The notes under the pieces are model-generated. The model did not search any database. It saw only the letters and a list, made by a program, of their open reading frames with translations, and was not told the origin of the DNA. From Cliona cf. orientalis (lineage: Eukaryota > Porifera > Demospongiae > Clionaida > Clionaidae): a DNA stretch of 64,000 nucleotides. Both the position numbers and the translations under genes were made by a program. The stretch lies in NCBI GenBank assembly GCA_963930775.1, contig OZ005699.1, forward strand, positions 124,001 to 188,000, read 5' to 3'. Each line of letters begins with the position of its first letter. Position 1 is the stretch's first letter. Of the stretch, positions 32,925-64,000 are shown piece after piece.

Positions 32925-46900
<13,976 letters not shown>

Positions 46901-47412
46901 TGTCTACTGTTGATAAAATTTTAATATTGCGCCTTACAGGTCGCAAGGATTTTTATAAACACAGCGAAGAAACTTGTCAGCTTGATTGATTTGGTCGGTA
47001 CATAGCGCTCACCAGGCCTTCGATCCAACACTGGCCAAGAATCACCTGCGATCCACAACTCCCAGCGAATGTATGGCACGCCAAATGTAACATAATAGCA
47101 CACTACGTGGAGACGTTCTTAATTAGATTACTTATATCACGTGAGCATGCATGTCAACCTTTGACCCTCGAGTCTGCACCCGAGATTACGTCGAAAGTCA
47201 ACGCTACGTTCACGGCCTCGATTCTTTGACGCCTACGTCCAAATATCTGACCCTACGTTACTGAGCTAGAAACACTACGTCAACCGAGACACTTTGATCC
47301 GGACTCTTTTCGAATTCGAATTCTGCCCCCGCCACCTTTGACCTTCCAGGGTTTCGCCAACTTGCCCCTCCTCTCCGCCACCTTTGACCTCTAGATTGTT
47401 TTGCAACCGGCC

Positions 47413-49673
47413 ATGGACGGACCTCAGGGCTGGAGTGATTTGTTTCAGGAGATTTCACAACTGATGCAGTCAAGTAGTCGGCAATTTTCGACTGCGAATG
47501 AAGAATACATGGAGTATGTGTTGGAGAGATTGGCCATCTGCATTAGAAGTGTGAGCACAATTAAAGATCGAGTGGAAGAAGAAGTGGGTGGGGATGGCAG
47601 CCATGTATTGTTCCGAATCTATCAGTTGTTGCGTGATATTGTAAGTCGGCTTCAAGTCCTTAGGCGTCAGTGGTCGGAGCAGCTTGAAAACCTAGCAATT
47701 CGGTTCAATTTTCACTATCAAGCTCCAACAGCTTCTGAAATTGCTACCTTGGGTCGTCCCAGATTCGAAATAACACGTGCTCAGTTGGATTACCTCCGTT
47801 CCTTATCTTTCTCGTGGACTGAAATTGCTCACTTACTGGGAGTGTCAAGAATGACTGTCTATCGAAGGCGTGTTGAATATGGACTAATGGAAGAGCCCAG
47901 TCACACTCTGACAGACGATGATCTTGATGAAATTCTTCGTCAGCTAAGGGTCGAGTTACCTGAACTAGGCGAGACAATGGCAGCTGGACGTCTACGATCT
48001 CTGGGGTACAGGGTACCAAGACAGCAACTCCGGGAAGGACTACGAAGGATAGACCCACTGAGTGCTGCCCTAAGATGGAGTACTAAGACCTCACGCCGCC
48101 CATACACAGTGTCTGGACCCAACTGCTTGTGGCACATAGGTAAGTTACGTCAATGCACTGATAGTATATAACTAGTGATGATGAAAATCATCTGTGCTGG
48201 GGTGAGCCTTCGTGAAAGTCACAAGATTTCTTTGGAAGATCATGCTCATGGCACTACCATCAGTGTCATGGGGCTGGTACTCCAGACTACAGTGGCATGT
48301 CAGTCAGTTGCATGAGTAGTGGCAGCATGCAGTGATGTTGGTTGTGGACCTGAACCTTGCCAGCGTGGTCAGGCACTCACCTTTCCAGTTTCATGAGGTC
48401 ATCTGCCAAGTTGTGCAGTGTGTGCATGCACTTGACGACCATTACCTATGCGCACTTCATGAACTATCACCCATTCCGCAAACATATAGCATTATTATAA
48501 AACCACTTCCTGTCTCGTGTATTTGACACTCGCTCAGGCTCGCCCCGAAATATGAGTTAGAGCGGGTGCCTGTGTGTGGCGTGTACTGCCACGGCCACAC
48601 TATGCTGTGTACATATGCATGTACAACGTCCTTACCACTTCCTTGTACATTTAAAATTGTGTTATTTCTATGCAGATGGGCATCACAAGCTTATACGCTG
48701 GCGAATGGTGACACATGGGGGAATAGATGGTTATTCACGACTGATTGTGTACCTCCAGTGCTCCTCGAATAACAAATCGTCCACTGTCTACAAGCTACCG
48801 TATTTCTTCTAAAAATTCGGCCCCTCTAATTATTCGGCACCCTTTACCGAATGATTGAATATAGTCTCTAATTTTTCGGCAAAGGTCGTCATGCGTATAT
48901 GCTATAAACGGGAATGGAATGCGTACGCAGACAGTTTGTTGAATATTAACCTCTAAAAATTCGCCGAAGCTAAAGCAATATTATTATTTTCATGCCGAAT
49001 TTTTAGAAGAAATACGGTATTCCTTGAAGCAACCAGACGCTACGGTCTTCCATCAAGAGTGAGGTCGGATCAGGGGGGAGAAAACTATGCAGTGGCAGTG
49101 CACATGCTACGCCACAGAGGAGTCGATCGAAACAGCATGATTACCGGTGCTTCCATCCACAACCAGAGGATCGAGCGTCTCTGGCGAGATGTTCACCAGT
49201 CTGTCACCATTTTGTACTATCGTCTGTTTTACTTTCTGGAGAGTCAGCAGTTGCTTGACCCATTAAATGAGATTCACTTGTATGCACTGCATTATGTGTA
49301 CCTTCCTCGGATTAGGCGTGCCTTGGATATCTTTCGGGAGGGATGGAATCACCACAGCATTAGAACAGAGAGCAACCTTACTCCTCATCAACTCTATGTT
49401 CAAGGCACTCTCAGTATGCACTCGTCTGGCTTAAGTGCGCTGGATTTCTTGGACGAGGTTGATGACATGTATGGAGTAGACGATGTGGATGATGTAGAGG
49501 CAAGTGTCAGGGGACCAGAAACTGTTACTGTGCCAGAATCTATTTTGACTGTTTCTGATGCTGTTTTGCAAGAACTAGCTCAAAGGGTAAATCCCTTGTC
49601 GGCAAGTGATAATTATGGAATCGACATATACCAGGAGGCAGTGGACATGTTAACACAACATTTTGGTACCTAA
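47413..49673 (+). pseudogene. Integrase-fold DDE transposase, left copy, disrupted
   Basis: Exon 1 (47413-48139) matches the intact right copy throughout in translation. Exon 2 (48676-49673) has the 220-bp MITE 48798-49017 inserted after the codons for SSTVYK, which ends the frame soon after. The rest, including VRSDQGGEN and [10 protein letters not shown], is preserved downstream. The open upstream TTG at 47401 is not needed; ATG 47413 is the likely start. Probably inactive. Confidence 0.85.
48798..49017. mobile_element. MITE inserted in the left transposase
   Basis: 220 bp between duplicated TA dinucleotides; the right arm provides the exact empty site (CAAGCTATTCC). Ends CCGTATTTCTTCTAAAAATT, mirrored at the other end. 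Interior repeats AATTCGGC-type words. Same CCGTAT-type terminus and TA target as other MITEs in the window. Confidence 0.9.
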
Positions 49674-49726
49674 GTGTTACATTGTTTTTTTTTTCACTTG
49701 ATCTGTCATCATAATAGTCATTGATA

Positions 49727-51458
49727 TTAGATAACAGTACTGTTGATGGCATGGCCAGTTCCTGAGTAGGATTGAAGGGTTTATAAATTATCATCAGAAT
49801 GTTGCTGCCATAGTAAAAAAAATTATCTGCTGTCCATGGCCAGCAAGCAGTCCCAAGCATCCCCTCCTAGTATAGGTTAGCAGAAACTGTTGCTTGTTAT
49901 AGCCCAGTGTTGTTAGAGTCCCCTCCTATGTATACTTGGGTGCTGTTGCTGAGTTGCTAGCAGTTGCCTGTGGTATATATTCCATGCAGTGTTGCCGGAG
50001 TCTTCATCAGTCTCCAGCATCCCCCGAGGTGTTGCTGAGTTGCCAGCAGTTGCCTGTGGTAGCCCATGCAGAGTCTCCAGTATCCCCTCCTATATAGGTG
50101 AGCAGTTGCTCATAGCCCAGTGTTGTTACAGTCTCCTCCAGACTGATACTATTAGGTGCTGTTGCTGATCGAGTTGCCAGCAGGTGCCTGTTGTAGTCCG
50201 GCCAGTGTTGCCAGAGCCTCCATCAATCCCTCCTATAGAGTTTCCTGGTGTAGCTATCCCTTTATTCCTGACATGGTTGCCTGTTGCCAGCTAGTCCATG
50301 GCCAGTGTTGCCATTCAGCTAGAGTCTCCACTCTCCAGTATATACCCGCCTCCTATACTATAATAATTATTATTATAGTGTAACTGAGTTACCAGCAGTT
50401 GCCTGTGGTATGGTAGCCAGCCATGCAGAGTTACCAGAGTTTCTTCAACCCCTCCTATGTTGAGTCTCCATGCAGCATCACTGCTGTTGCTGAATTGCCA
50501 GCTGTTGCCTGTTGTATAGTGACTCCAGTGTTCGTTGCCAAAGCATCCATGTATAATTATGACATTGTATTATAATAATATAATATTATTATGCATTACC
50601 AGTCTCCATCAACCACCCCCTCCCCCCAGGTATATATACTCCTGAGTTACCAACAGTTCTGTTCCGTGAGCCCAGTGTTCTGAGCTGGCAACTTAGCAAC
50701 TGGAGATTCTGTCATCAGGTAACTGCTGCCATGGCAACTCAGAAATACCTAGGGGGAGGAGGATGGGGAATTTGGCAACTATCATGGGAAATAGCACAGT
50801 AATATTTTAGAGAGAATAATTATAATATCTCATAATGACTATATGAATATGCTATACTATTATTATTATCATTATGATTCTTATGCATAACCAACATAAA
50901 TATTGTAAATCTGCAACTATTAATGCATTAAAATTTGAACACTGCTCTGTTTAATACTGAATAACACTTTGATGCAAATTTCCTATAGTGATCCATTCAG
51001 GATTATTCAGATATATTATTTGACATAACACCCGAGAAACATTAATCTCACCACTGCCCCATACTGAAAGTGTGCATGAAAGTTGCCAAGTTGAAAGTTA
51101 TGCTAAAAGTATAGGTATAATACTTTAATACACCTGAGAATGTTACATTGTACATAGTAGCATAGATCATATGATAGTATATAGCTAGTTCACATGAGAC
51201 TTCAAGTAGTAAGATGGAGATCTGAAGATATGTTGAAGTAATCATCTGGATGGAAATTAAATTTAGTGTCAACTATATAGTATGACTTCCACACCATGTG
51301 CGCATGCGCTCTGGCCACTAAACCGCCAGCTACCCGCCATAATTTCTAGTTGCTGATCATCTTGAGCCTAGGTGTTTTCGATAGTAAGTAAGTCTTGTCT
51401 AAGCCTTAAAGCAGTGCCGCTGTCTCTAGCACACTTAAGCTTTATTCGGTAGATAGTT
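49727..51458. other. Spacer between left arm and HECT gene, with degenerate repeats
   Basis: Roughly 49850-50720 holds a degenerate array in which GAGTTGCCAGCAGTTGCCTG and close variants recur about six times at roughly 80-120-bp spacing. The remainder is AT-rich. An NRF1-like palindrome occurs at 51299-51310. No gene seen. Confidence 0.6.
51299..51310 (+). promoter_or_regulatory. NRF1-like site upstream of the HECT gene
   Basis: TGCGCATGCGCT, about 150 bp upstream of the HECT start codon, matches YGCGCAYGCGCR at 11 of 12 positions. Suggests the cargo gene has its own host-type promoter. Confidence 0.5.
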
Positions 51459-54400
51459 ATGGCGTTGATGGAGTCTGGATCAACTTCAGCAACAGTTGCT
51501 GCTGCTGCTACAAAGGAGGTATTGGCGTGTTTCGGAGAACACAAACGGGTGCTCAAATTCTCTTCTGGGTCTCCAGCTCAAGAAATTAGCAGTTTGAAGC
51601 AAGCTTTTCTTATCACCTTCAGCGATGTGTTAGAGAATGGTGTGGAAGAGAAGAACTTGGTGGTGCAATTGAAAAATGAACTGTGGCGTGACCAATTCCT
51701 GGATGTTACCGATGATCAGATAATCTCAGATCGCAGCGTAGTCAATGTTGCCCTTTCATCACCAAGTGATAGTGTAAGTCAAATTGTGTATAATTTGTAC
51801 GTATTTATAGCTACATTTTAATACAAACAGATCAATAATTTTCTCCCTCCAAAGTTTTCCATTTATGATTCATTTTAGGGTCACCAGAATGAGGTGGGCT
51901 ATGGATTGATTATACAAAAATAAGATTAGTACAAAATCCCAAGTTTAATAATGTGTCACACTCTAATATTATCTATGCTTGTTGTTTCATCACATAAGCA
52001 AATTACTCACAATAGGCATGTACTATATCCACCCCCATGTTGCCCTGAAATGTGATTGATTCTCAATAATAATAATTATTGATGTGTTTGATCGATACTC
52101 TTAATAATTATACAGGTTGTACGTTTAGCACAGCAGATAGCAACTGGATCTGGCAGCCTTATCAAGATGAGGGAATCTGAATCAAAGGCTCTCAGTAGAT
52201 TATTTCCTTCTTCCACTTCACGGAAACGTCCTACCCCAATGTTTGATCCTAAGGCTGAATGTGTTGCCGCAGCACAACATCGTAAGAAAAAGGCAACAGG
52301 TTCTAGTGGACGGCCATCAAATGTAGTTGTCTTTATGTTGCCCAAGTTCACATCAAATGTACCACGGGGCAAACATAGAGCTCAGCTAGAGAGTATTGGT
52401 AGAAGGAAAACGCTAAAATTCTCTCGAAACATGTCCAACGAACAGGTAGAACTTGTTATTCGCCGAGGATTTGGTGTAGGTACACATTTTAAGTACCTTG
52501 ACTGTATTGACAATAAGCTTCAGATATCCGAGGAACAAGAACCCGATGGTTCAATAATTGTCAGCCGCAAGAGTGCTGTATATCTTATGGAGGCAACAGA
52601 AAATGTGCAGGTACACTATACTTGTGGTTGTTTGTGCGTGTGTGTGTGTGTGTGCATGCATGTGTAGATGTGTGTGGGAGCACCCGTTTATTGGAAGTTT
52701 GGAGTATAATTGCATGACTGTGTTGATTATTTGCACATGTATTAGGCTGGTAGCTGGCCTTTCTAATGTTTTTGGACCTCCTTTGGATACCCAAAGTTAA
52801 ATTAAAAGGATAGCTTGGGCATAGAGCCTCCTTGAAGCTGAAAGTTTTTTGGTAGCTAGAGGGAATTAGCATGGTTTAGATACTGTGAAGAGTGCAAGGA
52901 TCCAGACTTGCAAATAGTTAATTTATGTTGCAGCCATTATACTTGTGATGACAGTATTATAGCCAAATTAGTTGCATGCATGAGGCTGATGTATTCAATA
53001 ATTATTGTTCACAGCCACAGTAGCAGTCTGCTGTTTTGGTCAGACAATAATAATAAAATAATATTTTGCAGTGTATGAAAGCTAGTTTAGTGGTAGCAAG
53101 GTACAGCTGACTACTACAGGTACCTGGCTCAGTGGTCAAACTCAGACACCACACTTGTAGAGCTATTGCAACAGTGGAGAAAAGTGTGCACACATGCAGC
53201 TGCAATTGGACATGCTGTATTTGACTGCTATAGGCTAGTTCCTTATTAATAGTTAATGCACCTCCAGTTGCAGGATGTTTCCAGCCACAAATAGCAATAG
53301 CCAGACTACATTGATGAGCATGCATAAACTGTTTCACTACAATTGCCTATAACTAGTAATAATAATTATTTTACCTGTGGCTTTTCTATTGCAAAGCTGC
53401 CTGGTCACCATTATGAGCTCTTCATCAGGCCACACACACTGTACCATTCCATGCACAAGGCTAAAACCATGACTTTAGGATGTCTGATCAAATTTGAATA
53501 TGTCCGACCGTTTTAAAAATACTGTATAATTATAGAATATACTCTTGGTGCTAATATTGGCAACATTTACCCCTATCACCTAGCTTTTTTTACGTGAAGT
53601 ACATTACAAGTGGTCCTACTTGCGGTTCTCACCTTGCTCATTCTATTGTGTGGGTGTATGTGTGGCTATTATGTTGAATGCCATAGTGATAGTTCATGCC
53701 CATTACTTACAGTGAAACAGAATCTTATCACACAGTATAGTAAGTGTAATCTATTGCACTAATTTTAAGTTGATAACTTGTGTGTATTCTAGCTTGGACA
53801 TGGAGGTAGTGGAGCAAGGTGACTGCTATCAGTTGTAGCTATCTGTAGTACATCTTGTGAATTGTGGGTATTAAATTCAATACCTTCTCTTTAGGGAGAA
53901 TCCTTGGTTTCTCTAGTAGCAACATGGGGAGGGACTCTGGTGTTGGCATGTGACACTGTAGTGGTTACAGAATTGTGGCATACCATGACTCATTACTAAA
54001 AGCATCCATGCAGTGAGGGTAATCATGTGCATACTCTCTCCCACAGGAGCATGATATAATATTATAGTATTTGAGTACATACATCTTATCTCTTACAATA
54101 AAATTATGTTGGCGTGATGCACATAGTTATGGTGCCATTGCCTACAATGTGTATAATACTCTAGCAGTACATTAATTGAGTTTGTTAGCTCTCAATTTAA
54201 ATGAGGGATTATTCTAGATGCTTGTGCCTAGATTTTAATTTCTCCTTAAAATATTATAGATATCTAAAGAAGTTGATGCTCCATCTGAAGGTCTACCCAA
54301 TCGTAGTTCTGTCAACACGGACGAAGTAAGCTCTCTCTCTCTCTCTCTCTTACACACACACTCACGCAACGCACAGAGCTTTGGGATGTATGAGCCCTAT

Positions 54401-57400
54401 CGATATGTGCATCAAAGGGACCATTAACCTACTAGATATTATGTGCACCGAAGAAGGTGATAATATTATATCAGTAGATAAGAAGATTAACTCCCGATAT
54501 GATTATTATTCTCTGTAGCATACAAGGAGAAGTGATTCTGATAGCGAGAGTGAACTACCAGTGGTGAACTTTGGAAGGGTGAGACCATAATATTAACATA
54601 GGAATACCTTATACTGGCCACATAAGCAGTAAGTCACCCTCTTCCTTATTAGGAAATTATTACATCTAATGAAGTGGGGTAGCTTACCACCACCTGCAAA
54701 ACCCTCATTCTCAGTGATTTGCATGGAAATAATGTATGAGTAGTGCTGAAAATTTGTACATCCTGTCAGTGAACATGTGTGTGCGCACGCAGTGGTGTAT
54801 CAAGCATGGAGGCCCTCAGCTATGGCCGCATGACAATAGCCAGCTCAGTATATACCTCAGTGATCAATGATAATCGATAATTGGCAGTTCCTACCAGCAC
54901 AGTAAATTTCACTGGCCTTTAATATTCGCTCCTTAAACAGCATCTTCCTCCTACAGATCCTGGATATGCCACTGTGTGTGTGTGCATGTGTGTGTACACA
55001 GGAATTCCCCCAGAACAGAATCCAATCCGGGTGCTTAATGATATTCATAGGCTTTTAATTAAGTTGTGGCTTTAAACTCCACCCATTTCTTTGATGTTTA
55101 TCCAATTAGCCCAAACTCAAACTGGGTGGGCCACCCTCGTTCAGGTATGCTGGGGGAAACACTGGTACGTGATCCAAAAGTAGGAGTAGTGGATCTTTGC
55201 AGTTGTGATGTAGATGCATGTCACTAATAGAAAGTGCTATAATCGTAGCCTCGTCCCAATGTGGGAAGAATTAAGGGCCTTTAGTGGTGCGTAGGCAGGG
55301 AGGTGCTCAGGGTTCTCAAGCACCCCCCTGTGCTCTTGGCCTAGTCATGCCTAGTTCATGAACAGCCTCATCCAGCACCTCCTTAGCTACTCCAAACCAT
55401 AATAAAAAGGCTAAGAAGACAGTGGAGGCCTGGGGAAAAGTGCTAGCTGTAACTGATGATTTCTACGCATTGTATTATGTACTATAATATTATTATGTTC
55501 ATCAGAGTATGCGAGTTAACAGCCTAAGTACACCGGGAGAATCATCTGCATCGATAATACAGCAGCAAAACAGAGAGTATGAGCAGAGTCTTCAAAGAGA
55601 TAGGCAAAAGGTGTGGATGTATAAAAGTAGTTGCATGACATTAATTTACTGATATTATATAATTATTTTGTAGGTTGAAGAATCAGAAGGTAAAGAAAGA
55701 GATCTAGAGGTATGTGGTAGATGAGGTATTGGGTAATTACCATGCATGCAGGGGCAATAAAAAAAGGGGGGACCTGACATCTTTGATGGTATATATATAT
55801 ATATATATATAGATGTAAGTACTGTGACCATTAATAATTATTGGTATGCCATGGCCACCTAAGGGGACTGGAGGCATGCATGGTTCCAGAAAATTTGTAA
55901 GTATAAACTCTGTTTTTGGAACTAACTAATCTACTCGCATACTGAGTGTCCAACCAATGTGAGTTAGTGGCCCATGATGTCACTCATAGTGTAATAATTA
56001 TTAATAACAGAAGCTCAGCGTCCCCCACCCCCACCCCATAATATTCTCCTTAGTCAGCAAGTGATTATAAAATTATAAATGTACAGATATTGAGGCAAAT
56101 GCGGGTGACTCTATTGGAGCAGCTTCCTACACCTACAGAACGTGGTGAAGCACTCAAGTTAGTGTTTAAACTTCCTGATGGCACGAAATTAGAAGGAGAT
56201 TTTGATAGGAATTCAAAACCAAAGGTATTCAATTACTTTAATTTGTGTCCAATAGCATAATATATCCCAATAATGCAGTTGCTGTATGAATTTGTATTTG
56301 CAAAGTCTACTTTGGATACTGCTTTTTCAATCTCCACTACCTTTCCTCGTAATGTGATTTCTGTTGCATCAGCCACAAGTATTGGTGATCTTCGATTGGA
56401 AGGGTTATTGACCGTAACGAACGAAGAGAATTCGCCTGACCCTCTCTCATATTTAATAAGTGAGGAGTACAGCCTACCAAAGGTGATTGATTTATGGTGC
56501 CATAATTATTATTAGTTTAAGTATTGTCATACCCACCGGACCATCTATTCATGTTTTAGGTCACAGAGCAGCCTTTTCTGGCAGTATTGGAAAAAGGTAT
56601 ATCTACATAGCTATGTAGGATTCAAGCATGTACTATGTATATGTACTACACATGTACAATGTTACTACCATTGCTGCATCAGTGTAATATACATTATTAT
56701 AATTATTGCTGGGGAGGGAAACAATACACAAGAGCTGGAGGGTGCTTGGTTCTCCAGTTTTGCCTATCAAACAGCTAGCATAAGGTCCATGATCGCAGCC
56801 CCTTGGCTGTAAGTTTTTTGGTCGGTAATGATCATTACACGGAAAAGTCACAATCCCTCCAATAATCCCCCTCCCCACTGCAAAATAACAATATCATTAA
56901 TATGGCTGTGTCATAGTTTGGTAGCATCCTAACCCCCTCTCCCATAATCCTGGATTTTCTAGTGTAATACAGGGATTGTTTGGGCTTTCAAATTCTGTGT
57001 TTGTTGGTATTGACTGGGGTGTGTGTACGAGACCACAATATTGCTGGGAGGGAACAATGCACAAAAGGCCCAGTATATGTTTGATCCATGATGGTGGAGA
57101 AAGCTTGGTTTTGAGGGAGGGATCAACTTTCAATGACAGGTAGCTCATTAATTAAACTGAATGTACTTTATTTCAACAGCAAAGTCTAAACGAGAGAGTT
57201 TTATGAAAGGACTAAAGCTACAGGGAGGTGCCAAATCTTCGGTTGTCCGCAATGAGGAGTATGAATCGATTTTCAAGTTGTATCAGGAACCTCAACTAGT
57301 CGATACGCTTTCAAAATATCCATTCAGGATCCGCTTTGTTGGGGAAAAGGGAGTTGACCTTGGGGGAGTATGCCGTGATGCGTTCACGGCATTTTATGAT

Positions 57401-58264
57401 GTTGCTTATCGAAAATATTTTGATGGGTCCACATTGGTGACTCCAGCTATCCATCCTGGAACAGATATTACGGCGCTTAAAACATTAGGATGTATTGTCT
57501 CCCATGCCTACCTCACTTGTGGTATACTGCCTGTGAGAGTTGCTTTTCCGTGTCTGGCACAGATGCTCTTGCCTCATGATGGCTTAACCATTCCAGATGA
57601 AGTGTATGTGCAAACTTTTTTCGACAGCTTAAGTGTGCACGATCAAGGGGTTTTGAAGGCTGCATATGAAGAAATAAAACAGAAAAGGCCAAGTTTTTCT
57701 GAAGGTGTTAAATCAAGTTTACAAGTTGTGCTGAGCCTGTATGGTTGCAGGGAACTACCACACCCAGACAACCTGCAGAGAATTAGTCTGCAGATAGCCA
57801 AGTTTCAGTTTCAGCTTCAGCCCTCAGCTGCTATCTCAGCAGTGAAGAGTGGGATTGCAGTTCAGCACGCACCATTTTGGAAAGCAATGTCTTTGGGCGA
57901 GCTATATCGAATTTATTGTGCTCTATCGGTGTCACCAGCCAAGGTAATAAAAATGTTGGAGGATGTACCTGTTAATAATAAGGCTGAGCAGAGGGTTTTG
58001 GGCTACCTGCATCAGTATATCGGTAACATCAGTAATGAACAGTTATGTGACCTGTTACGCTTTATCACTGGGTGTGGAGTGTGCATTGGTCCTATTTCAG
58101 TCATGTTCAATGGTCTGGATGGATTTGAAAGGCGACCTATGAGCCATACTTGTAGCAACACGCTTGACCTCCCTTCAACATACTCAACATACATGGAATT
58201 CAAACATGAGTTTGATTTGATATTGAAGAATGTTGATACTTTGTGGAAAATGGATTCTTATTGA
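51459..58264 (+). CDS. UBX-HECT E3 ubiquitin ligase carried inside the composite unit
   Basis: Ten exons (51459-51773, 52116-52610, 54260-54325, 54519-54578, 55506-55610, 55674-55709, 56087-56224, 56279-56482, 56560-56596, 57180-58264) join in phase to 846 residues. A conserved N-terminal module (GRRKTLKFSRNMSNEQVELV, then an acidic, Ser-rich linker) resembles that of multi-copy HECT genes in fish and corals labelled G2E3-like. At about 370-470 lies a UBX-like beta-grasp domain (LKLVFKLPDGTKLEGDFDRN ... STTFPRNVI). The HECT domain spans about 500-840: RIRFVGEKGVDLGGVCRDAF and the catalytic-cysteine loop HTCSNTLDLP with Cys about 810. HECT enzymes take ubiquitin onto this Cys before passing it to substrates. 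The gene looks intact. Target unknown. Confidence 0.87.
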
Positions 58265-59264
58265 CAGAATAAACTACATTAAGTAATGAAAATTTGACCG
58301 AGTACCAATACTATTACAGCTACAACTATTGAGAATGTTGAGAAAAATTAATACATAATGTAATTATAGTATTTTGAGGAAAAGTATTATTGTTAATAAT
58401 AATATTATTGGTGTGGTAATAATATTCTTTTATGATATTGTGTAATATTCATTATAAGGAATTGAAGTCCAGTGATGTATGATCAGCAAGAATCCTGGTA
58501 CAGTAATACTACCTACAGTGTAGTGGTTGGAGTATGCTGGGCTGTAGCTGAGTGATTCAATTTGATGGTATCTGCCAATCACATGTACTTGATGGTGTCC
58601 CACAATCACTGCTGCAATGTTGTGCTGAGATAGTATAGTATGACAAATTGTATAAAGTAATGTCACTTGGAGCTTGAACTATGATTATTACCATTCATGC
58701 ATGAGGGTCTCCAGACACAGCGTTAGCAAGACTATAGGATGATAATTTGCAGATCATGAAATTCTTTGCTCTGAGTGTGCAAGAGGAGGCAAGGCATTGT
58801 GTGTGCACAGTGTCATGCATGTATGCATAGATCATGGAGAATCCATGCAGTAAGTTATGACTTATAATTATTATAATAATAATACTGGTCACTTGTATTC
58901 TAGCCTGTTAACTATAAACAATTATTGACATACTAATAGCTCATTTGGTCACAAAACATCTGAGTATATATCATAGATCATAATTATAATATGATGCATG
59001 GTATATACACATTGATAGAGCTTGGGGAATCATCATAATTATAACCATAGATTGAGGCTTTAATGCTCAGTATAAGTGCTCTTGATCTGCAGTATTGGTC
59101 CACTCTGGATCCAGCATCATATATTGTATTATTATTATTCATCCCCCCAGCGTGTCCAATGCCATAACATAATATTAAAATTTAATTACTCAGACTCATA
59201 ATTATTCAGGAATTGGCCATATGTATGCAATCAATAGTAACTGTTATCAAAAATAATTAATGTT
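58265..59264. other. Spacer between HECT gene and right arm
   Basis: AT-rich, probably including the HECT 3' UTR. No gene seen. About 60-70 bp next to the right arm retain weak similarity to the sequence just inside the left arm (GATAACAG-TACT-TTGAT, then GGCCA-TTCCTGA). Confidence 0.55.
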
Positions 59265-61699
59265 TATCAATGACTATTATGATGACAGATCAAGTGAAAA
59301 AAAAAAAACAATGTAACACTTAGGTACCAAAATGTTGTGTTAACATGTCCACTGCCTCCTGGTATATGTCGATTCCATAATTATCACTTGCCGACAAGGG
59401 ATTTACCCTTTGAGCTAGTTCTTGCAAAACAGCATCAGAAACAGTCAAAATAGATTCTGGCACAGTAACAGTTTCTGGTCCCCTGACACTTGCCTCTACA
59501 TCATCCACATCGTCTACTCCATACATGTCATCAACCTCGTCCAAGAAATCCAGCGCACTTAAGCCAGACGAGTGCATACTGAGAGTGCCTTGAACATAGA
59601 GTTGATGAGGAGTAAGGTTGCTCTCTGTTCTAATGCTGTGGTGATTCCATCCCTCCCGAAAGATATCCAAGGCACGCCTAATCCGAGGAAGGTACACATA
59701 ATGCAGTGCATACAAGTGAATCTCATTTAATGGGTCAAGCAACTGCTGACTCTCCAGAAAGTAAAACAGACGATAGTACAAAATGGTGACAGACTGGTGA
59801 ACATCTCGCCAGAGACGCTCGATCCTCTGGTTGTGGATGGAAGCACCGGTAATCATGCTGTTTCGATCGACTCCTCTGTGGCGTAGCATGTGCACTGCCA
59901 CTGCATAGTTTTCTCCCCCCTGATCCGACCTCACTCTTGATGGAAGACCGTAGCGTCTGGTTGCTTCAAGGAATAGCTTGTAGACAGTGGACGATTTGTT
60001 ATTCGAGGAGCACTGGAGGTACACAATCAGTCGTGAATAACCATCTATTCCCCCATGTGTCACCATTCGCCAGCGTATAAGCTTGTGATGCCCATCTGCA
60101 TAGAAATAACACAATTTTAAATGTACAAGGAAGTGGTAAGGACGTTGTACATGCATATGTACACAGCATAGTGTGGCCGTGGCAGTACACGCCACACACA
60201 GGCACCCGCTCTAACTCATATTTCGGGGCGAGCCTGAGCGAGTGTCAAATACACGAGACAGGAAGTGGTTTTATAATAATGCTATATGTTTGCGGAATGG
60301 GTGATAGTTCATGAAGTGCGCATAGGTAATGGTCGTCAAGTGCATGCACACACTGCACAACTTGGCAGATGACCTCATGAAACTGGAAAGGTGAGTGCCT
60401 GACCACGCTGGCAAGGTTCAGGTCCACAACCAACATCACTGCATGCTGCCACTACTCATGCAACTGACTGACATGCCACTGTAGTCTGGAGTACCAGCCC
60501 CATGACACTGATGGTAGTGCCATGAGCATGATCTTCCAAAGAAATCTTGTGACTTTCACGAAGGCTCACCCCAGCACAGATGATTTTCATCATCACTAGT
60601 TATATACTATCAGTGCATTGACGTAACTTACCTATGTGCCACAAGCAGTTGGGTCCAGACACTGTGTATGGGCGGCGTGAGGTCTTAGTACTCCATCTTA
60701 GGGCAGCACTCAGTGGGTCTATCCTTCGTAGTCCTTCCCGGAGTTGCTGTCTTGGTACCCTGTACCCCAGAGATCGTAGACGTCCAGCTGCCATTGTCTC
60801 GCCTAGTTCAGGTAACTCGACCCTTAGCTGACGAAGAATTTCATCAAGATCATCGTCTGTCAGAGTGTGACTGGGCTCTTCCATTAGTCCATATTCAACA
60901 CGCCTTCGATAGACAGTCATTCTTGACACTCCCAGTAAGTGAGCAATTTCAGTCCACGAGAAAGATAAGGAACGGAGGTAATCCAACTGAGCACGTGTTA
61001 TTTCGAATCTGGGACGACCCAAGGTAGCAATTTCAGAAGCTGTTGGAGCTTGATAGTGAAAATTGAACCGAATTGCTAGGTTTTCAAGCTGCTCCGACCA
61101 CTGACGCCTAAGGACTTGAAGCCGACTTACAATATCACGCAACAACTGATAGATTCGGAACAATACATGGCTGCCATCCCCACCCACTTCTTCTTCCACT
61201 CGATCTTTAATTGTGCTCACACTTCTAATGCAGATGGCCAATCTCTCCAACACATACTCCATGTATTCTTCATTCGCAGTCGAAAATTGCCGACTACTTG
61301 ACTGCATCAGTTGTGAAATCTCCTGAAACAAATCACTCCAGCCCTGAGGTCCGTCCATGGCCGGTTGCAAAACAATCTAGAGGTCAAAGGTGGCGGAGAG
61401 GAGGGGCAAGTTGGCGAAACCCTGGAAGGTCAAAGGTGGCGGGGGCAGAATTCGAATTCGAAAAGAGTCCGGATCAAAGTGTCTCGGTTGACGTAGTGTT
61501 TCTAGCTCAGTAACGTAGGGTCAGATATTTGGACGTAGGCGTCAAAGAATCGAGGCCGTGAACGTAGCGTTGACTTTCGACGTAATCTCGGGTGCAGACT
61601 CGAGGGTCAAAGGTTGACATGCATGCTCACGTGATATAAGTAATCTAATTAAGAACGTCTCCACGTAGTGTGCTATTATGTTACATTTGGCGTGCCATA
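59265..61699 (-). mobile_element. Right inverted arm (intact transposase copy)
   Basis: 2435 bp, the inverted counterpart of 47072-49726 without the MITE. Its transposase faces inward toward the HECT gene, as does that of the left arm. Confidence 0.85.
59320..61358 (-). CDS. Integrase-fold DDE transposase, right copy, apparently intact
   Basis: Two exons (60632-61358 and 59320-60095) give 500 residues. The N-terminal half includes a helix-turn-helix ([20 protein letters not shown]). The rve-type catalytic core follows: first Asp in WHIDGHHKL (split by the intron, donor GTAAGT, acceptor TGCAG), second Asp in VRSDQGGEN, Glu in [10 protein letters not shown]. The C-terminal part is acidic. Related integrase-like proteins are numerous in fish, cnidarian and sponge genomes. 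The family name (IS3EU, Ginger or other) is not settled here. Confidence 0.85.
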
Positions 61700-61880
61700 C
61701 GAATGCGGCGGCTTCGATTGATCTTCAAGCGAGTTTCCTGTGTGTTCTAATTAATGCGCACCCCATCAATACAGCTGTTTATGCTTGCACGTGATTGTCA
61801 TGTGAACAGTAGATCAGGAAACGAGCTTCAAGACCTACCGACCCCTTGCACAGTTTTGGAGAGGAGAGGAGAAGGCAGAG

Positions 61881-63411
61881 ATGTCTAGAGGCGGCAAACT
61901 CCACGATATGGTAAGCAGCCTGAAGATTCACATGCACTATCAATTTATCTATACTTTCTGAACGTCTACAGACCAGGGACCAGGAGGTATTTGAGACCCC
62001 TGACCCTATTGACACTATGGAGAATTATGACGTAAGTGCAGACGGACATCTAGCACATCAAATGTTTTGATCCACAATTATTATGTAATAATTATTTTTT
62101 TCTAGGATGATCAGAAGAGCGAGGTCGTCCACAAGTTAGCGATGAACGTCCAATCGTCCTACGATAAGTTCAAGGACAAGGTTCTCGATGGGAAGAACAC
62201 GGGTAAGATTGCAAGAAAGAGAGAGTAAAACCCTGCCATTTTCCACAATGTACCACAGATGTATTGAATTTTCACTGTATAGTCCCTAGTCTATCTTCAT
62301 ATTTTCAATTACATGTATACTCTTTACCCTTCATTATTCTTATATTTAGATTTCTCTGGTCGTGTGGACATTCCCGATCGCCATGGTTACCGTGCGGAGC
62401 CATCAGACTACGAGATGTCGGTAGTCGATCGTGAGCCGGAGACGCTCCTCCAGCGCTATCAGCGGCTGAAGGGAGAGGTCACCGAGCTAGTCAGCGACGT
62501 GGAGAAGGTCAAAGAGAGTCAGGAGAGCTCAGAGAAGCTGCTTCAAGTATCTCCAGCCGATCTCCTACAAGATGTAAGATAATGATAACAAAGGTTCCCT
62601 ATACTCCCACCAAGTTACATGTGGCCATCAAATTTTGCTTCACTGATTGTGGCTGCTAGTCTCATTTATTTTGAGACCACCAGCACAGGTCATGGAGAAA
62701 TATCTGTATACTTTGGAAACTCCTAGATTAGCATATTATAATTATTGCTGGATTCTGATTTTTGACACTTAGAAATTTCATAAAATTTCCCGTTTTGAAA
62801 TATTTGGGTATTTATAATTTATTATATGGAGTGTCCGGGCCTTCCCTGCTTATAGAGTCTACTGTCACTGATATGTACATCTCTCTTTCTTTCTCTCGCC
62901 CTCACTCTCTCTCTTTCTCTCTCTCTCACTCAGGTCCAGCTGCTACAGAAGCAGTTGCATGGTTTACAGTTGGACCGGAGTCTGGGTAGCCAGCTGATGC
63001 TGAGCGCTGAGCACCCCTACCACACTGTGCTACTCCGTGACCTCAAGGCCCAGCTGGAGGCTCTCAAGGAGGGGCAGAGCGTAGAGGGAGGGAGAGGGGG
63101 GAAGCAGCCTCCTCAGGGGAGCAAAGAACAGCTGCCAACTTACGAGATCTATGCCAGGACCGAGTCTGCCAAGTTTGCACAGCTCTCTAAAGTGAGTTAG
63201 GGCAGTTGATCGTTATTAAAGTTTTATTAGTAAGCCAGAGCTAAGTATAGCAATTGTCATCTAAATATAGCAATTATCGTCGTTTAGTGGCCAATTTTAA
63301 GATGATATTTATAGTTGATGGTTTTTTTCCATTGTTTCTGCAGCTGAGTGAGGTGGAGCAGCGCTTGAGCCAGCTGGAGGCCCTCGTAGGAACACAGGAC
63401 ACGACCGTGGT

Positions 63412-63462
<51 letters not shown>

Positions 63463-64000
63463 AGGGAGAGAGAAAGATATTGTACATTGATGTGTTCTGC
63501 AGTCTGCTGTGGCAGGAGGGCTGGATGGTGACCAGAGAGATCTGTCGGTATGGCTAAATTCAGAAATTTTTCTCTTAAAAAAATTTTAGATGATTTTTTT
63601 TTTTTACTTTTCCCCTAGTCTGCTGTGTTGAACCTCCAAGCTAAGGTTGCTCTGTTGGATCCCTCCCACATCAGCGCCATAGGGGGGCAGCTGCAAGTAA
63701 GTCCAATTTTGACTGAGGAGTGATGGTGTCAGAAAATGTCATTAATTTTTGTGTTTGTGTTGCTAGAATGTCCTCCAATTGCTCGAGCAGATCAGTGAAC
63801 AGGCAGAGAAGAAGGAGGCCAGTCCTGATAAGAAGACACAGGTCAGTGGAGGGGTGAATATTTGTACTAGTACTTGATAGCTTAATACAGGACCTTTCTC
63901 ATTATACTATATACAACGAAAAATATTTTTCAGACAATCATTTTTCTTATAATGGTCCGTGTCCTAACCTGGAGGGCATAAAAGATGCGCTCTTGTACAA
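61881..64000 (+). CDS. DCTN2: Dynactin subunit 2 (dynamitin), 5' part
   Basis: Nine exons are visible (61881-61910, 61972-62031, 62106-62202, 62350-62573, 62934-63191, 63344-63409, 63503-63547, 63619-63696, 63767-63841); the gene continues past the right edge. Family features: N-terminal VFETPDPIDTMENYD; the SGRVDIPDRHGYRAEPSDYE segment; PETLLQRYQRLKGEV; and long coiled coils including LSEVEQRLSQLEALVG. Dynamitin is part of the dynactin shoulder, which links cytoplasmic dynein to cargo. Its start lies 175 bp from the right edge of the composite unit, and before that insertion it would have been about 350 bp from the kinesin-1 start codon, head-to-head. Confidence 0.94.
63899..64000 (+). repeat. 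Dispersed repeat, copy 3 (runs off the edge)
   Basis: ACAACGAAAAATATTTTTCA and CCTAACCTGGAGGGCATAAA match the copies near 15708 and 18048. Sits in a DCTN2 intron. Confidence 0.6.

Follow-up and report, generated by a model that had tools for sequence, protein, structure and literature searches.

What kind of mobile element places two nearly identical, inverted, transposase-bearing arms around a ubiquitin ligase gene in an animal genome? The question is raised by a 14.6-kb block in the sponge Cliona cf. orientalis, which lies within a 64,000-nt stretch of contig OZ005699.1 (hereafter the window; positions without a contig label are positions within this stretch, and the window copy is the C11 copy). 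A first-pass annotation, made from the sequence alone, had read the block either as a Tn5/Tn10-like composite or as an element with giant inverted ends that contain the transposase and with a HECT ligase as cargo, and held that it had moved once as a unit. We consider it very probable that the block is a transposon of the IS3EU type that carries HECT as a gene of its own, and that the end bearing its transposase was duplicated, in inverted orientation, at the opposite end.

Layout and transposition of the 14.6-kb element

The HECT-gene interior lies between inverted arms of about 2.43 kb, the left at 47072-49726 on the plus strand (2433 bp plus a 222-bp insertion) and the right at 59265-61699 on the minus strand (2435 bp). 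As annotated, the arms are 100% complementary apart from the insertion and two T residues in a T-run. The outer ends are TATGGCACGCC, starting at 47072, and GGCGTGCCATA, finishing at 61699, and the hexamer CGAATG stands directly outside both (47066-47071 and 61700-61705), in flanks that are single-copy in the genome (500 bp on the left, and the right flank). The transposase open reading frames (ORFs) face inward in both arms, with the HECT ORF between them. No terminal inverted repeat (TIR) was found inside a single arm: the inner end, TATCAATGACTA..., is unlike the outer end, TATGGCACGCC. Each window arm thus has one transposon end only and is not a transposon on its own. The copied piece spans the sequence from the terminus to about 50 bp beyond the transposase stop codon.

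In the right arm, exon 1 (helix-turn-helix [HTH] region, 60632-61358, minus strand) joins across a GT-AG intron to exon 2 (DDE core PF24764 and C-terminus, 59320-60095, minus strand) to encode an intact 500-aa protein. The left-arm exon 1 (47413-48139, plus strand) was assigned by identity with this gene model, its HTH matches falling under the Pfam cut-offs; exon 2 with the PF24764 core (48676-49673, plus strand) is split by a miniature inverted-repeat transposable element (MITE), and no two-exon model was obtained for this arm. The integrase core matches PF24764 at 6e-82. Both exons also match the NCBIfam families IS481 (1.4e-5 and 8.5e-5) and IS3 (1.3e-4 and 6.9e-3), colinearly and far below the cut-offs. 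Alignment A1 shows invariant D61 and E96 with 34 residues between them, which we take to be catalytic residues. A PDB search with exon 2 returned zero matches up to E 1, and a scan of a viral contig collection with alignment A1 found no relative.

The 222-bp insertion consists of the 220-bp MITE (48798-49017), with CCGTATTTCTTC terminal repeats, and a duplicated TA (48796-48797 and 49018-49019). This TA-flanked MITE, with CCGTATTTCTTCTAAAAATTCGG ends, disables the left-arm transposase in the window copy only, and at least 34 other copies at 96-98% identity occur among the best 40 of 1820 candidates in a genome search with the arm.

Queried with the window arm, the genome yielded a second two-armed block of 14,403 bp at C19:2570350-2584752. 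Relative to the window copy it has 3 substitutions, four small indels and no MITE, and it is flanked on both sides by its own 6-bp duplication, GGTCCG. There are zero substitutions between the two C19 arms, and both encode the intact 500-aa transposase, compared to one intact and one split gene in the window; the giant transposase-containing ends proposed in the first-pass annotation are therefore borne out. Because two near-identical copies occupy different target sites with different 6-bp duplications, the whole block has transposed as a unit, as that annotation held. The near-identity of the C11 and C19 copies further suggests that the element has been active very recently.

The first-pass annotation had named solo arms with duplications of their own as an observation that would count against a single unit. 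No such arm was found among the best-scored candidates of either genome arm search (40 of 1820, and 40 of 685 with the MITE-free C19 arm as query). The latter search placed the whole arm only in the window and C19 copies, plus one diverged, split copy on C1; its remaining matches fall in a repeat within the transposase intron (arm positions 1080-1490). This intron repeat (e.g., window 60210-60620) recurs at 66-93% identity, often in pieces, on most large contigs, and may be an old inserted element.

The HECT gene and relatives with one or two transposases

The 367-aa HECT-domain exon (57161-58264, plus strand) matches PF00632 at 1.1e-7, over the cut-off, and carries the motif SHTCSNTLDLP; in an alignment to the Itch HECT domain the catalytic-cysteine pattern SHTC..LDLP is kept. 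It is predicted to encode a HECT E3 ligase domain with its catalytic cysteine. Two exon-like ORFs lie upstream on the plus strand. The first (51453-51821, N-terminal part) is conserved in a copy at C1:19.85 Mb with a ratio of nonsynonymous to synonymous substitution rates (dN/dS) of 0.27 over 94 codons. The second (52092-52667) has homologues in elements on C6, C9 and C1, with a dN/dS of 0.15 over 166 codons against the C1:19.85-Mb copy. The annotated intact multi-exon HECT gene is thus upheld in its HECT exon and in two open, conserved upstream ORFs, and the full gene is a prediction.

The genome (217 Mb) contains 55 occurrences of the pattern TATGGCACGCC, versus 6 of the reversed control. 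Exact ends no more than 15 kb apart form 11 inward-facing pairs, namely the two copies of the window family, three elements of 11.4, 11.7 and 7.3 kb, and six short elements of 0.7-1.2 kb; identical 6-bp flanks were found in 9 of these 11. Five of the six short elements share their end sequences with the 11-kb family, from which they appear to be non-autonomous derivatives. The targets of short copies L037-L040 and L042 are CGCGCG (four) and CGCGTG (one), suggesting a preference for GC-rich 6-mers.

The relatives on C6, C9 and C1 (7.3 kb) each pair a single transposase with a homologous HECT gene, arranged tail-to-tail, with about 40% identity to the window element in HECT and 61-66% in the transposase core. 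Their transposase lies at the HECT-3′ side, like that of the window's right arm. The TIRs of these elements are short, with 34 bp in the C6 relative and 66 bp in the C1 relative, and the C9 relative has a short imperfect TIR match, recognized by eye in the end sequences. The C1 element is damaged, with a stop in its HECT exon, and no intact transposase model was found in it.

The genome search with the HECT exon, which recovers HECT genes resembling the window's and not every HECT gene of the animal, returned 24 rows representing 19 loci, the window and C19 included. Fifteen of the 19 have a transposase core no more than 5 kb away (distances counted over the 46 strongest of 137 PF24764 rows, for which 150 of 204 candidates were scored), in every case tail-to-tail. 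One more HECT locus, at C1:19.22 Mb, lies about 2 kb away from a TATGGCACGCC end. Between the C6 and C9 elements the HECT dN/dS is 0.13 over 352 codons, which indicates purifying selection on the gene in this family. As single-transposase relatives carry the homologous HECT gene tail-to-tail and under purifying selection, HECT is an old gene of the element and not cargo trapped between insertion sequences.

We compared the histories of the two genes in a transposase tree (32 of 38 rows, after exclusion of fragments and duplicate arms) and a HECT tree (the window exon and 12 of 14 rows). The C6/C9 family is grouped in both. The trees conflict on C2:9.63 and C1:26.30, which are paired in the transposase tree (96/91) and not in the HECT tree, and the deeper forks of both are unsupported either way. 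Long-term co-descent of the transposase and HECT genes is thus likely.

The survey of PF24764 rows yielded two further observations. C1:16.7-36.6 Mb, about half of C1, holds 21 of the 46 strongest rows and looks unusually rich in these elements; C1 makes up about 17% of the assembly. A distant group with open frames of 340-411 aa comprises C7:8376839, C1:25630326, C1:26013956 and C1:28351984, of which C7:8376839, its sole aligned member, has a match about 30% identical to the window's.

A doubled-arm layout also occurs in a 9,437-bp element at C1:18611549-18620985 (L049). Its arms, of 2,397 and 2,405 bp, are 99.3% identical, have TATGGCATTCC ends and finish at the transposase stop codon, and a target duplication, GGGTCG, stands on both sides. 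Transposase matches are present in both arms and a HECT C-lobe lies between them (PF00632, 5e-12; absent from the HECT tree). We obtained no intact spliced transposase model for L049, and a genome search with its arm found no other whole copy. Its transposase belongs to a supported clade of its own (100/98, 6 rows), and the window's to another (100/99, 3 rows). On the transposase tree, with 19 unlabelled rows left out of the group counts, the doubled-arm label needs two changes; the starred branches force one, and an equally good result arises in 95 of 500 shuffles. The doubled layout may thus have arisen twice. L049 and the C19 copy both answer the suggestion in the first-pass annotation to look for a HECT gene between inverted arms elsewhere, and its suggestion to look for further loci with the same ends and 6-bp duplications is answered by matching flanks in 10 of 12 end pairs, L049 being added.

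Classification and rival explanations

We file the element under IS3EU because it has TATGG..CCATA ends, 6-bp duplications and an IS481/IS3-like DDE transposase. These ends are found on both sides of the window, C19, C6, C9, C1 (7.3 kb) and L049 elements, and agree with the TA..TA form TAYGG..CCRTA. IS3EU/GingerRoot elements are described with TA..TA ends, usually 6-bp duplications and a transposase allied to IS3/IS481 (Kojima and Bao 2023, PMC10045372), all of which the window element shares; the parts of that account available to us describe neither a HECT gene nor a transposase-containing TIR. Fungal IS3EU elements have TAYGG..CCRTA ends, 6-bp duplications and TIRs of more than 30 bp, and they likewise carry extra genes (Kojima 2025, PMC12730594). 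There the cargo is a TET/JBP dioxygenase and an alpha-kinase in place of HECT, and transposase and alpha-kinase genes are oppositely oriented, like transposase and HECT here; a text search of that article found neither HECT nor ubiquitin. Our literature searches returned no publication on HECT in IS3EU, nothing on HECT combined with passenger gene and transposase, and none on TIRs holding a whole transposase, their long-TIR matches being to Galileo. The first-pass annotation had known of no animal element with this exact layout. Its superfamily has been described; the unusual feature is the doubled transposase inside two 2.4-kb inverted ends.

KolobokP has been called composite-like and has long terminal repeats in animals, but these are direct repeats of about 450 or 660 bp around an interior transposase, and solo repeats exist (PMC9587614, as far as consulted), whereas the arms here are inverted and hold the transposase. 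The five element ORFs that we scanned against Pfam gave an integrase core, HECT and sub-threshold HTH matches, and no polymerase or capsid. Polintons/Mavericks have a 6-bp duplication and carry DNA polymerase and capsid genes.

Could two independent, inverted IS3EU insertions have captured a host HECT gene and moved as a block, in the manner of a bacterial composite? In Tn5/Tn10 composites the gene is enclosed by arms that are themselves insertion sequences, each having two ends. The inverted transposase-bearing arms around another gene, with a 6-bp duplication outside only, resemble this arrangement, yet the window arm has one end and not two, and among the best-scored candidates whole arms occur only in the C11 and C19 copies, the partial element on C1 also holding interior sequence. 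HECT is moreover already present, in the same order, within single-transposase relatives. We therefore reject the composite reading, one of the two offered by the first-pass annotation, regarding it as highly improbable; capture of a host HECT gene at the window locus is rejected on the same evidence from the relatives. An assembly artefact or segmental duplication is scarcely credible. Long, perfect inverted repeats are easily misassembled, but the two loci differ in their flanks, in their 6-bp duplications and by a MITE and indels private to one of them, the window flanks are single-copy, and the distantly related L049 has the same layout. The existence of another complete copy, which has a duplication of its own, makes an assembly error at the window locus unlikely.

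We also asked whether the doubled arms are a maintained strategy, with two selected transposase genes (for dosage, or as backup against MITE-like insertions) kept identical by conversion. The layout does occur in two starred, separate transposase clades, the arms of both reach 0 or about 50 bp beyond the transposase stop codon and so take in the whole gene, and the C19 arms lack substitutions between them. A recent origin, however, equally predicts arm identity, and a single origin with losses is compatible with the tree. Only 3 inward-facing pairs within 20 kb were found among the 46 strongest transposase rows, two of them from the same family, and L049 has yielded no intact spliced transposase. 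On balance we regard a maintained strategy as unlikely.

The element sits between two genes. On one side is a minus-strand kinesin gene (42800-44800; PF00225, 8e-28 and 1.5e-12), whose coiled-coil ORF at 39314-39790 gave no kinesin match; on the other is a plus-strand dynamitin gene (62163-63900; PF04912, 4e-12).

Proposed history and significance

We propose that the element belongs to a lineage that carries an IS3/IS481-like DDE transposase gene and, in the opposite orientation, a gene for a HECT-type E3 ubiquitin ligase. The self-encoded transposase would cut at the outer TATGGCACGCC..GGCGTGCCATA ends and move the element by cut-and-paste. As the relatives' transposase sits on the HECT-3′ side, like that of the right arm, the left arm is best read as a derived copy in place of the old left end, the right arm presumably keeping the ancestral position. 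The transposase-holding end would thus have been copied, inverted, onto the HECT-5′ end, most likely when a break there was repaired from the transposase end through short-TIR homology. This would have enlarged the TIR, once a few tens of bp long, to 2.43 kb, with a complete transposase gene per arm. Growth of this kind is described for Galileo, a P-superfamily element of Drosophila, in which TIRs take up adjoining internal sequence, inverted, at the other end (PMC3573991, as far as consulted).

The HECT ligase is retained by selection, and we speculate that it aids the element in countering host control or in turning over the transposase. For fungal transposons, including IS3EU, TET genes have been proposed to disarm host silencing. 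It is doubtful that IS3EU elements here repeatedly evolve a form with transposase at both ends, and with arms kept by conversion, around a HECT gene that disarms host silencing.

Several observations weigh against the history that we favor. The left end of the C1:19.85-Mb relative (90-96% identity) was not found, so that this element, which holds interior sequence and one arm, split by a 3.1-kb insertion, does not show the single-arm ancestor of the family or date the arm doubling; no HECT-domain match was found in the 18.5 kb examined there. The repair step is something that we only infer. Two of the 12 end pairs lack matching flanks, at C1:24567312 (the 7.3-kb element) and C10:8415112 (a short one), and 4 of the 10 matching duplications are CGCGCG, in some cases within longer CG-rich runs, and count as weaker evidence. 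Between the window and C1:19.85-Mb copies the transposase dN/dS is 0.45 in exon 2 and 1.6 in exon 1 (104 codons), so no constraint is evident there. The HECT dN/dS is 0.36 for C5 versus C2, on few changes, and C5 versus C3 shows only 2 replacement changes. Putative membership in IS3EU rests on ends, duplication length and IS3/IS481 likeness rather than on reference sequences.

We note separately that the right flank of the C1:19.85-Mb element (L036) has nearly the same sequence as the left flank of the C1:24.57-Mb element (L035), gatcggcctaagact, as if both had inserted into copies of one repeat.

The element points to a lineage of animal DNA transposons in which selection has kept a ubiquitin ligase gene over the long term, and to inverted repeats that have grown to include a whole transposase gene in two separate element lineages of one genome. 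Its apparent recent activity makes the transposase and the role of the ligase testable. For annotation it carries a warning, in that a HECT gene with an integrase-like neighbor may be part of a transposon.

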